The translations under genes were made by a program, and so were the position numbers. This document shows positions 6,215-15,264 of a stretch of 64,000 nt of DNA, piece by piece. Origin of the DNA: Candidatus Latescibacterota bacterium (GTDB lineage Bacteria; JAAXHH01); assembly GCA_022821085.1 (NCBI GenBank), contig JAJEEG010000006.1, positions 2,687,330 through 2,751,329 on the forward strand. Direction: 5' to 3'. The number at the start of each line of letters is the position of its first letter. Position 1 is the first letter of the stretch. The notes beneath the pieces are model-generated. The model saw only the letters and a program-made list of their open reading frames with translations. It was not told the origin of the DNA and ran no database searches.

Positions 6215-7086
6215 CCCTTCGTTCCTTTGCAAAGATCAACCTGAGCATCCACCTGCTCGGCAAGCGGGCCGACGGCTACCACGAGATCGTCACGCTGATG
6301 GAGACCGTGGACCTGGCCGATGAACTGGTAGTGTCCGGTCAGGAGAAGGGAACGGCCATCACCTGCTCCGACCCGGCCGTGCCGACGGACGGGCGCAACC
6401 TGGCGCACCGGGCGGCCGGACTCGTGCGGGAGCGCTGCGGACTCGGCGACCGGGGCGTGCGCATCCACATCGAAAAGCGCATCCCCGTGGCCGCGGGACT
6501 CGCCGGCGGAAGCGGCAACGCGGCCATGACGCTGCACGGGCTCAACGCGCTCTGGTCGCTGGGGCTGCGGGAAGAAGACCTGATGGGACTCGCCGCGGAG
6601 CTGGGGTCCGACGTGCCCTTCTGCCTTCATGGCGGCGTGGCGATGGCTTCGGGACGGGGGGAAAAGGTCGCCTGGCTGGATGCGCCCGGGCCGCGCCACT
6701 ACGTCCTGGTCTGTCCGCCCCTCGAGGTCGCGAGCGGATGGGCCTACAGTCAATGGAAAATGGAATTGACAAAAGACGTGACCAGTATTAATTTAATCTC
6801 TTCTGTCATGCAGGCCGGGGATGCCGGTAGACTGGCGTCCTGCCTGCATAACGATCTGGAACCGGCGGTCCGGGCGGCCCACCCCGAAATCGACGGGGCG
6901 AGGGGCCTGCTTGCGGACGCCGGGCTGGAAGGCGTACTGATGTCCGGCAGCGGCCCGTCGGTCTTCGGACTGGCGCCCGGCCGGGCGGAGGCGGAACGGA
7001 TAGCACATGTCCTGCGGGGACGGGTCGAACCGTCCTGGCGGATCTTCGCGGTCTCCTCGTCGTCCCGGCGGGATGCCGCGGTTTAA
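6211..7086 (+). CDS. ispE: 4-diphosphocytidyl-2-C-methyl-D-erythritol kinase
   Basis: GHMP kinase of the non-mevalonate (MEP) isoprenoid pathway; it phosphorylates CDP-methylerythritol. It is 291 residues with the IspE N-terminus (FAKINLSIHLLGKRADGYHE), the ATP loop PVAAGLAGGSGNAA near residue 91, and the C-terminal LMSGSGPSVFGL glycine motif. It overlaps gmhA by ATGA and is followed by prs after a 26-base gap, matching the common ispE-prs order. No unusual feature was seen. Confidence 0.94.
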   Translation: MTLRSFAKINLSIHLLGKRADGYHEIVTLMETVDLADELVVSGQEKGTAITCSDPAVPTDGRNLAHRAAGLVRERCGLGDRGVRIHIEKRIPVAAGLAGGSGNAAMTLHGLNALWSLGLREEDLMGLAAELGSDVPFCLHGGVAMASGRGEKVAWLDAPGPRHYVLVCPPLEVASGWAYSQWKMELTKDVTSINLISSVMQAGDAGRLASCLHNDLEPAVRAAHPEIDGARGLLADAGLEGVLMSGSGPSVFGLAPGRAEAERIAHVLRGRVEPSWRIFAVSSSSRRDAAV

Positions 7087-7112
7087 TCGAGGTACCTGAA
7101 GGAGGGCGGCAC

Positions 7113-8066
7113 GTGGCGGTCGGTTTGAAGATTCTGAGTGGGAATTCAAACGCACCGCTTGCACAAGACATCTGCGAATATCTCGGCGTATCCCTGGGCA
7201 AAGCCGCCGTTTCCCGTTTCAGCGATGACGAGATCCGGATACACATCAACGAGGACATCCGCGGGACCGACGTGTTCGTGGTCCAGTCGACCAACTCGCC
7301 GGCGGAGAACCTCGTCGAACTGCTGTTGCTGCTGGATGCGGCCAAACGGGCGTCGGCGCGCAGGGCCACCGCGGTGATCCCCTATTACGGCTATGCCCGC
7401 CAGGACCGAAAGGCGGGACCCCGGGTACCCATTTCGGCCAAGGTCATGGCGAACCTGATCGCCGCGGCCGGAGCCGACCGCGTGCTGACCATGGACCTGC
7501 ACGCACCCCAGATCCAGGGGTTCTTCGACATCCCCCTGGACCACCTGTATTCGGCGCCCGTGTTTACGCGCCGGCTCAGGGAACTGGGGACGTCGGAGGA
7601 CCTGGTGATCGCGTCCCCGGACGCCGGGGGCATGGCCATGGCCCGGTCCTACGGCAGGCGGCTGAACTGCCCGCTGGCCCTGGTGGACAAGCGGCGGCCG
7701 AGACCCAACGTGTCCGAGGTCGTCAACGTGATCGGCGAAGTGGAAGGTAAGAACGTGATCATTCGCGACGACATGATCGACACCGGGGGGAGCCTGACCG
7801 GCGCGGCCGAGGCGCTGAAGAAGAACGGCGCGGAGACGATCTACGCGGCATGTACCCACGCGTTGCTCTCCGGAAACGCCCTGCAGAAGGTGGAGGATTC
7901 CGTACTGGACTGCCTGATCGTTTCGGACACGATTCGCCTGAACGAGGACATGTGCGGCGGCAAGGTGGAACAGTTGTCCGTGGCCTCCCTGTTCGGCGAG
8001 GCGATCAAGCGCATACACGAAGAAAAATCCGTCAGTTCGCTCTTCGAATCGTCGGATCAGACCTGA
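7113..8066 (+). CDS. prs: Ribose-phosphate pyrophosphokinase (PRPP synthetase)
   Basis: Makes PRPP from ribose 5-phosphate and ATP; PRPP feeds purine, pyrimidine, His, Trp and NAD synthesis, including the pyr genes at 29.6-32.4 kb. The start is GTG at 7113 with a GAAGGAGGG ribosome site 6-7 bases upstream. Length is 317 residues. Visible are the flexible-loop YARQDRK, the MDLHAPQIQGFFDIP segment, and the PRPP loop DDMIDTGGSL near residue 220. It is a class I enzyme by length and motifs. Confidence 0.96.
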   Translation: MAVGLKILSGNSNAPLAQDICEYLGVSLGKAAVSRFSDDEIRIHINEDIRGTDVFVVQSTNSPAENLVELLLLLDAAKRASARRATAVIPYYGYARQDRKAGPRVPISAKVMANLIAAAGADRVLTMDLHAPQIQGFFDIPLDHLYSAPVFTRRLRELGTSEDLVIASPDAGGMAMARSYGRRLNCPLALVDKRRPRPNVSEVVNVIGEVEGKNVIIRDDMIDTGGSLTGAAEALKKNGAETIYAACTHALLSGNALQKVEDSVLDCLIVSDTIRLNEDMCGGKVEQLSVASLFGEAIKRIHEEKSVSSLFESSDQT

Positions 8067-8112
8067 GACGGACGTCCCTGACAGGACACCGGGAATCGCA
8101 CAGGAGAAGGAA

Positions 8113-12498: not shown

Positions 12499-12747
12499 AT
12501 GAAGACAACGCTCAACATCCAGGACGAATTACTGGTTCGTGCGAAGCGACACGCGCGACGGACCGGACGACCGCTACGCGCAGTAGTTGAAGAGGGTCTG
12601 CGGCAAGTACTTTCAACTGAATCCCCACGTGACCGATACGTTCTGCCCGACCTCAGCGTGGGTAAAGTCGGAGATCGAGACCCCCTGGAGGCGTACTCCT
12701 GGCAGGACCTCCGGGAAGTTATTTACGGAAAGCCTGACCTCCCGTGA
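12499..12747 (+). CDS. vapB: Type II antitoxin, VapB-like ribbon-helix-helix
   Basis: An 82-residue antitoxin. The N-terminal MKTTLNIQDELLVRAKRHA pattern is a ribbon-helix-helix DNA-binding unit; the C-terminal half (YVLPDLSVGKVGD...YSWQDLREVIYG) is the usual toxin-wrapping region with DRDPLE and WQDLRE motifs seen in VapB proteins. No ribosome site precedes the ATG, and the predicted transcript start lies 0-11 bases upstream, so translation may be leaderless. The gene overlaps vapC by GTGA. A+T content is higher than in the neighbours, which fits a mobile toxin-antitoxin module. Confidence 0.85.
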   Translation: MKTTLNIQDELLVRAKRHARRTGRPLRAVVEEGLRQVLSTESPRDRYVLPDLSVGKVGDRDPLEAYSWQDLREVIYGKPDLP

Positions 12748-13181
12748 TCGCCGTAGATACAAATCTGCTGGTTTATGCGCACCGGCGCGAATCGAGGCAC
12801 CATGAGTTGGCTGCTTCGCTGATGCGCGAATTGGCAGAAGGCAACGATGCATGGGCTATTCCCTGGCCCTGCTGCTACGAGTTCCTCAGCGTGGTCTCCA
12901 ATCCCCGTATATGGCGAGACAGCGCCACGAGTCCAGAACAGTCGTGGCGGCAACTCGCCGCCTGGACAGCCTCCCCTTCGGTACGATTGTTAGGCGAGAC
13001 CGATGACTTTCCGGATATATTGGAAAGCTTCGTTCGGCGTCCGCGCGTAATTGGCGGCGTGGTTCACGACGCCAGGATCGCTGCAATTTGTGTAGCACAC
13101 GGGGCAGAGGTGCTCCTGACACGGGATCGGGACTTTTTACTCTTTCCCGAACTAAACACGCGGGATCCTATCGCCGGATGA
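12744..13181 (+). CDS. vapC: Type II toxin, VapC-like PIN-domain ribonuclease
   Basis: A 145-residue PIN-domain nuclease starting at GTG 12744. Conserved acidic residues are visible: the Asp in AVDTNLLVYA near the N-terminus, the Glu in CYEFLSV (~47), the Asp in VHDARIAA (~108) and the Asp pair in TRDRDFLLF (~127). VapC toxins cut tRNA or rRNA and are held inactive by VapB. All four acidic positions are intact, so the toxin should be active. The adjacent cognate antitoxin supports the call. Confidence 0.88.
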   Translation: MIAVDTNLLVYAHRRESRHHELAASLMRELAEGNDAWAIPWPCCYEFLSVVSNPRIWRDSATSPEQSWRQLAAWTASPSVRLLGETDDFPDILESFVRRPRVIGGVVHDARIAAICVAHGAEVLLTRDRDFLLFPELNTRDPIAG

Positions 13182-14496: not shown

Positions 14497-14526
14497 TTGT
14501 CAACCGGTACGCAAAGTCGGTATCAT
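14497..14526 (+). promoter_or_regulatory. Promoter of the candidate selenoprotein gene
   Basis: TTGTCA (14497-14502) and TATCAT (14521-14526) with an 18-base spacer, each 5 of 6 to consensus. The start near 14533 gives a ~53-base leader. Together with the terminator at 15231 this makes the gene monocistronic. Confidence 0.6.
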
Positions 14527-14585
14527 AGTTAACCCGACCGGCCCGGGACGACCGGGGTTTTAGTCCACCACCTGAAAATGGATCG

Positions 14586-15167
14586 ATGCAAATGACAAAC
14601 CGTATCCGCTTGATCACCGCGCTGATCCTGGCCGGAACCCTGTCGTGGGCTTCGCAGGCCGGCGCCCAACTCAGTACCAACACCGGCTTCAATCCGGAAC
14701 CGCTCAGCCTCGTGGATTTCAAGAAGGCTTTCAACGGCGATACGGGCAAGGTCCGCCTCGTCGTGATGTTCTCTCCTACCTGAGGCCACTGCATAAGCGG
14801 CGCCGGGGCGGTGCAGCAAGAGATATTGAAGAAGTTTCCCTCCGATGACCTTCGGGTCTACGTGGTCTGGCAGCGTATACTCAGGAACGATGCGGCCAAT
14901 ACGGCTCGGATCGCGGCGGAGCAGGTGTTCACCGACAAACGGGTCAGCCAGATGTGGGACCCCGCGAACGCGCTGGGATTCTGGTACAAGAAGTCGGGGG
15001 AACTGGAACACAAGGACCCCATGGTCTGGGACGCCTATTTCCTCTACGGCGCAGATGCTGAGTGGAAGGATGCGCCTACCGGGCTGATCGACGCCGGTTA
15101 CACGGTGTGGAATATGAAAGACAGGCTCTTGAAATCGGTGGCAACGACGATGGAGACTGTGGACTGA
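14586..15167 (+). CDS. Candidate selenoprotein: exported thioredoxin-like protein with U-x-x-C
   Basis: Read with TGA at 14781-14783 as selenocysteine, this is a 193-residue protein with Sec at position 66. A secretion signal covers residues ~1-28 (hydrophobic ITALILAGTL, cleavage near AGAQ); the start could also be the ATG at 14592. Before the TGA the frame reads VRLVVMFSPT and after it GHCISGAGAVQQEIL, giving U-G-H-C at the place of a thioredoxin CxxC, at the end of a beta-strand and start of a helix. The frame stays open for 384 more bases with normal coding character. A hairpin follows the TGA. The alternative is a nonsense mutation in a CGHC-type protein, but the intact promoter, frame and terminator argue against decay. 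Downstream sequence contains LRVYVVWQRIL and YFLYGADAEW, resembling thioredoxin-fold transport-linked proteins. No sel genes are in the window. Confidence 0.75.
14784..14813 (+). promoter_or_regulatory. Candidate bacterial SECIS hairpin
   Basis: CACTGC (14787-14792) pairs with GCGGTG (14808-14813) over 6 bp with one U-G. An inner CG/CG pair leaves an apical GCGC loop starting ~17 bases after the TGA, with G as its first base. Spacing and the loop G agree with the loose bacterial SECIS consensus. It was folded by eye only, and the region is GC-rich, so alternative folds exist. Confidence 0.45.
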
Positions 15168-15230
15168 TCTCCCTGTAGCGGGGAGTCCAAGTATCAGGAT
15201 TCATCCACAGCACGACGATAATCAATTGGA

Positions 15231-15264
15231 CGGGGCGGTTCGGCAAGGACCGCCTCGTTTTTTT
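15231..15264 (+). terminator. Rho-independent terminator of the selenoprotein gene
   Basis: An 11-bp stem (15231-15241 with 15247-15257, two G-U pairs), a 5-base GGCAA loop and seven T residues at 15258-15264. This is a strong intrinsic terminator on the plus strand, 63 bases after the stop. Confidence 0.9.

Follow-up and report, generated by a model that had tools for sequence, protein, structure and literature searches.

A family of predicted exported thioredoxin-like selenoproteins, linked to mercury-transport genes in some bacteria

The 64,000-nucleotide stretch of DNA analyzed here (the window) contains a gene whose in-frame stop codon is almost certainly read as selenocysteine, judging from comparison of the codon and its surroundings across relatives. 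The gene belongs to a family that is overwhelmingly in the Sec form, occurs in at least 12 bacterial families, and is without a Pfam or NCBIfam model. Our explanation as a whole, a bona fide selenoprotein acting as an exported thioredoxin-like oxidoreductase with a soft-metal role in relatives, is likely to be correct. The Sec codon, the decoding machinery, the SECIS element, the active-site motif, the export signal, and the mer linkage in relatives are all read from sequence; from these we infer the fold, the redox direction, and the metal role of the family. Annotation would cut such a gene at the UGA. An earlier note on the same DNA had proposed a selenocysteine-containing, thioredoxin-like exported protein, but did not foresee that the family is widespread or that it is tied elsewhere to mercury-transport genes. 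Fusion to mercury transporters offers a testable idea as to why a cell pays for selenium outside the cytoplasm.

Results

The open reading frame at 14586–15167 on the forward strand is interrupted by a single in-frame TGA at 14781–14783 (codon 66) and ends at its own TGA stop at 15165–15167. With the internal TGA recoded, the product reads ...RLVVMFSPT-U-GHCISGAGAVQQEIL..., giving the motif PT-U-GHCISGA. Sec66 would occupy the first position of U-G-H-C, and Cys69 (codon at 14790–14792, +), invariant in the family alignment, would be the resolving residue at the second UxxC position. Several genus members that lack the ATG at 14586 keep a second ATG, for which reason translation more likely starts at 14592. 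The selenoprotein gene is accordingly placed at 14592–15167 (+), encoding a precursor of ~191 aa with one Sec; the frame and stop given in the earlier note hold, while its start at 14586 gives way to the better conserved ATG. Past the TGA the frame stays open for 127 sense codons up to the stop at 15165–15167, in line with the 128 codons first counted.

Conservation of the TGA extends well beyond the genus. All 12 sampled genomes of the genus, at 78–97% identity, are interrupted by exactly one TGA at the same site and in the same frame, and the TGA falls in the same column in other phyla, which rules out a chance frame. A member of another genus in the window's family (G012) carries SPTUGRC, and two genomes from another phylum (G088 and G358) carry SPTUGVC. 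Profile searches of three further phylum-level groups returned APTUPGC, SPTUPAC, SPTUPFC, SPSUPGC, SPTUGAC, and others; in almost all of them the TGA keeps its column. The U is always followed by two codons and then Cys, this second motif Cys is invariant in a 17-member alignment, and the protein is conserved on both sides of the TGA across 12 families.

Across 44 loci, the homologous codon is Sec in 38 and Cys in 4 (the second copy in G187, G384, G592, and G593), and the motif is lost in 2 (G587, which has SPTSASS, and G455); the homologue comparison proposed in the earlier note thus returns Sec or Cys at 42 of 44 loci. The Sec loci span 12 family-level groups in five phylum-level groups (G000–G012; G088, G358; G187, G389; G172, G468, G469, G491, G492 twice, G493, G494, G495, G533, G535; G340, G603, G616, G621, G623 twice, G624, G628, G631, G636), with the reservation that 12 of the 38 come from one genus and are hence non-independent. 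Neither sequencing error nor a nonsense mutation could produce such a pattern. The tally leaves out matches in G104, G244, and G372, where SATCGHC occurs in a long lipoprotein-like protein that has the look of an ordinary TlpA-type thioredoxin. Searches for the family among viral contigs and on plasmids found none.

Two genomes illustrate loss. G587, 100% complete, has Ser at both active-site positions and carries neither tRNA-Sec nor a SelB above the cut-off. In G013, from a sister genus, all that is left of the gene is a C-terminal piece downstream of ychF (contig 102, L051/L023); this genome retains tRNA-Sec and SelB, a decay of the gene without loss of the Sec trait.

The earlier note had suggested looking for selA, selB, selC, and selD in the same genome, and all four are present: SelB (671 aa, 347 bits), tRNA-Sec 26 bases downstream of selB (70.6 bits), SelA (446 bits), and an oxidoreductase-SelD fusion (250 bits). 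The fusion is a single protein of 773 aa in which SelD follows an oxidoreductase-like domain (L032 1393–3714). Adjacent selA-like and selD-like genes on contig 6 of the same genome (55784–58723; L033, L027) were considered as a second Sec system and rejected; the selD-like gene scores below the selD cut-off, and the two are probably a PLP enzyme/AIR-synthase-like pair of another pathway. Among genomes with a Sec gene, tRNA-Sec exceeds 60 bits in 24 of 28, and SelB is above the cut-off in three of the remaining four; neither was found in G009 (87% complete), which has the Sec gene. Of the comparison genomes that lack a Sec copy, 31 of 51 likewise have a tRNA-Sec above 60 bits, so its co-occurrence is a requirement that is in place rather than strong evidence.

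Immediately after the UGA, the window reads GGCCACUGCAUAAGCG-GCGCC-GGGGC-GGUGC, where the last three blocks form a candidate bSECIS upper hairpin (14800–14814, +) of 5 bp with a 5-nt loop that has G first. Bacterial SECIS elements are described as having a loop of 3–9 nt, a stem of 4–16 bp, a G in the first two loop positions, a distance of 16–37 nt from the UGA, and an MFE of −7.5 or lower (PMC13188914). The hairpin agrees with this description throughout, its spacing being 21 nt and its energy ranging from −7.8 to −10.5 kcal/mol. A hairpin after the TGA had been anticipated with a loop beginning ~17 bases downstream; the loop of the best candidate starts 22 nt after the TGA instead. Its folding energy is unremarkable, with z 0.4 for the 66-nt post-UGA stretch alone, which is not unusually stable, and z −0.9 for the short hairpin, so support for a SECIS comes from conservation and from relatives and not from energy.

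Within the genus, codons +1 to +12 after the TGA form the most constrained stretch of the gene, 1 of 12 being synonymously variable versus 75 of 135 elsewhere (p = 0.0015). In 12 distinct sequences drawn from four phylum-level groups, with loop codons that encode different residues, the 5-bp stem pairs completely (100%) in one common register, and shifted registers in these sequences are at most 60% paired. Changes to this stem in the window's group are one-sided only, with no double compensatory change. The hairpin of the other large group, GACGGGG-GUU-CUCCGUC, has 7 bp, is 100% paired, and has two pairs changed on both sides; the covariation of these 7-bp hairpins was equalled by 4 of 500 shuffles. 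An Rfam search of the region gave no match. Given the agreement with the bSECIS description, the synonymous constraint, the conserved pairing, and the covariation in relatives, SECIS function is well supported for the family and reasonably supported for the window.

These observations bear on two other accounts of the TGA. One is a pseudogene disabled by a nonsense mutation, or a pair of separate ORFs, an account that draws on the mechanical splitting of the frame by the TGA and on the lone C-terminal fragment downstream of ychF in G013, which belongs to the same family; yet the TGA and the downstream frame are kept over 12 genus members, 12 families, and five phylum-level groups, the promoter is conserved, and the Sec machinery is present, leaving this account a negligible probability. 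A code change, in which the TGA is read as another residue such as Trp, deserves a hearing since a read-through TGA alone cannot separate Sec from recoding. Here, however, the gene's own stop is a TGA at the same place throughout the genus, non-Sec members carry Cys and not Trp at the homologous site, and tRNA-Sec, SelA, SelB, and SelD are found together with a SECIS-type hairpin after the UGA; we regard such a change as extremely improbable. Decoding as selenocysteine is the reading we carry forward.

The N-terminus resembles a classical signal peptide, MTNRIRLITALILAGTLSWASQAGA followed by Q (14592–14666, +), in which a hydrophobic core precedes AGA before the Q; hydropathy peaks at 2.1 over LITALILAGTLS. 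The layout is alike in the genus members and in G012. A signal peptide ending in AxA supports export of the product, which the earlier note had proposed. Members in G088 and G358 have no evident signal peptide.

An AlphaFold model of the mature part, built with only eight close sequences, has a pLDDT of 55.5 and a pTM of 0.58. Its strand and helix order is that of thioredoxin, and position 66 falls where the first core strand gives way to the active-site helix. The best PDB matches of the model are thioredoxin-like/ResA/TlpA/DsbE-type proteins (E 1e-4 and up), and peroxiredoxin-like proteins match alike. Matches to thioredoxin profiles are weak, the best being PF13462 at E 0.002, below the cut-off. 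Invariant residues of the family are P, U/C, C, W, D, R, W, D, Y, and W. The UxxC motif, the weak profile matches, and the moderate-confidence model with thioredoxin topology all point the way the earlier note did, and the protein is probably a thioredoxin-fold selenol/thiol oxidoreductase.

The gene lies ~200 bases downstream of ychF and is convergent with aceF/aceE, the latter named by eye from translations. A VapB-like antitoxin (weak) and a PIN-domain toxin form a pair at 12499–13181 of the window, between a tRNA cluster and ychF. A putative promoter, TTGTCA-18-TATCAT (14497–14526, +), matches 10 of 12 consensus positions and is conserved in 12 of 12 genus members although the spacer drifts. 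The single 10/12 match is by itself not rare (0.5 expected), so the near-consensus promoter of the earlier note is upheld as a conserved site, and the match alone is unexceptional. A leader stem-loop, CCCGG-GACGA-CCGGG (14542–14556, +; CCCGGGACGACCGGG), is kept through the genus while its flanks change and could be an attenuator or stability element. The strong terminator that had been noted is an intrinsic one at 15228–15260 (+), with 14 pairs followed by a T run.

Relatives elsewhere connect the family to mercury transport. In three genera of two phyla (G389, G621, and G623), MerT, HMA, and the Sec-thioredoxin domain are joined in one polypeptide, with Pfam E-values of 3e-8, 2e-7 (just below the cut-off), and 3e-18 for MerT and 3e-12, 2e-12, and 1e-14 for HMA, respectively. 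The three fusions are encoded on the minus strand (L085 5343–6932, L103 1435–2901, and L105 1423–2553), and two of them have an extra domain of ~100 aa, lacking a Pfam match, between HMA and the Sec-thioredoxin. MerT has three membrane spans and an outward C-terminus, which would put the fused Sec-thioredoxin domain on the same side of the membrane as the free exported protein.

Linkage without fusion is seen in G088 and G358, where the Sec gene comes after a weakly matching MerT-like gene and an HMA gene with two TGA codons in its metal site, GMVUGAU; this HMA gene scores 87 bits to NF041115 (cut-off 95). G088 also has a glutaredoxin-like gene with PTUSSC. On the minus strand of its contig 46 (L082, ~6300–8100), apparently three selenoprotein genes (SSPTUSSC, GMVUGAU, and SPTUGVC) accompany the MerT-like gene; in L022, the neighbor of the family gene is a glutaredoxin-like UxxC ORF. 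In G493, the cluster around the Sec gene includes a regulator of the MerR type, a MerT-HMA protein, and, above the cut-off, a homologue of the DF-family (seleno)protein. MerT matches lie on the same strand 2.4 kb away in G494 and 1.4 kb away in G495. Eight family loci are mer-linked or fused in all (three fusions and five mer-type neighborhoods). Outside the window's family, Pfam MerT occurs in 7 of 15 Sec genomes versus 2 of 31 without a Sec copy (Fisher p = 0.003, only indicative because the genomes are related). None of the genomes in the window's family (G000–G013) has MerT, and the metal role may therefore not apply in that family; beside the window's gene there are no mer genes, its neighbors being ychF and aceF/aceE.

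Discussion

In the mechanism we propose, SelB with Sec-tRNA would read the UGA, aided by the SECIS hairpin just 3′ of it, and the product would be exported and adopt a thioredoxin-like fold. The selenolate of Sec66, placed at the N-terminus of the first active-site helix, would attack an oxidized or metal-bound thiol, Cys69 would resolve the resulting selenenyl-sulfide, and an electron donor would then recycle the protein. Attack by Sec66 and resolution by Cys69 would make the protein a thiol/selenol oxidoreductase that works outside the cytoplasm and most likely reduces oxidized or metal-blocked thiols. A selenolate binds and exchanges soft metals better than a thiolate. For the mer-linked relatives, the target would probably be either Hg(II) or the paired cysteines in HMA/MerT. 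Soft-metal-thiol handling is probable because the partners of these relatives are MerT and a MerP-like HMA domain, and the common job of the family would probably concern soft-metal-thiol sites such as Hg(II), which it may strip or re-reduce at the cell surface. We advance more tentatively, as a possibility on the doubtful side, that extracytoplasmic Sec-thioredoxins use their selenol to exchange metal with MerT/MerP-type importers, in a selenium-for-mercury device at the cell surface. Some bacteria would build it as a single MerT-HMA-SecTrx polypeptide; the window's lineage would keep the exported protein free, and there it may act on a different soft metal or on a thiol.

The selenoprotein may instead be a general exported disulfide reductase or isomerase, or a peroxide-linked redox protein, for which the mer linkage was a secondary recruitment. 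We give this somewhat under an even chance: the window's family lacks MerT, most Sec loci have no mer neighbor in the stretches read, the model matches ResA/TlpA/DsbE and peroxiredoxin-like proteins alike, and a Bcp-type peroxiredoxin ORF was seen by eye near the G469 copy, but MerT-HMA fusions in three genera and two phyla together with five co-located loci, set against MerT in 2 of 31 comparison genomes, favor a metal role. It is unlikely that the family is a diverged member of one already listed, whether DsbG-like/Rcas_1661 (NF041057) or GOS Prx-like 2 / Trx-like 3. NF041057 matches the Cys paralogue of G187 at E 1e-4, and this paralogue also brushes SelP_N (E 0.23), a domain to which GOS Prx-like 2 is weakly likened (PMC2398784). 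Even so, the NF041057 score is 22 bits versus a cut-off of 190 and belongs to the Cys paralogue only, no member reaches an NCBIfam or Pfam cut-off, and the GOS sets were weighed by description only.

A separate family of exported Sec-thioredoxins remains our preferred reading, and its relation to known systems can be set out as follows. No member reaches any Pfam or NCBIfam cut-off, single-sequence scans of the product gave nothing, and these searches equate no entry with it in a 2026 review's table of prokaryotic selenoprotein families (PMC13188914). The family is therefore uncatalogued in the reference libraries and reviews consulted, and no account of it turned up in literature searches covering its motif, its lineage, and selenoproteins linked to mer genes. 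The GOS Prx-like 2 and Trx-like 3 families, compared by description only (PMC2398784), share UxxC and a weak likeness to known Trx-fold domains. The Rcas_1661/DsbG-like protein is likewise a thioredoxin-like (seleno)lipoprotein with UxxC, and NF041057 is the nearest profile to one member (best 21.9 bits, in the G187 Cys paralogue only); Sec members of the present family, however, have no significant match, making it at most a distant cousin.

SaoT (NF040730) is a thioredoxin-like UxxC protein of the SAO system, a metal-related selenoprotein cluster (PMC13188914). The thioredoxin-like character and UxxC are common to both, whereas the neighboring genes differ, and NF040730 gave no match at E 0.1 against 17 family members. 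Mer-type metal handling with Sec is likewise represented by NF045683 (MerT/CopZ fusion-like heavy metal transport selenoprotein) and NF041115 (UxxU metal-binding selenoprotein), which match the MerT and HMA parts of the related loci below cut-off, but the thioredoxin-like Sec domain of the present family lies outside both models. TlpA, ResA, and DsbE share the predicted fold, the extracytoplasmic site, and the position of the active site after the first strand; they differ in showing ~10–20% identity in structural alignment, with no Pfam match above cut-off, and the family's own invariant P, W, D, R, W, D, Y, W pattern sets it apart from them.
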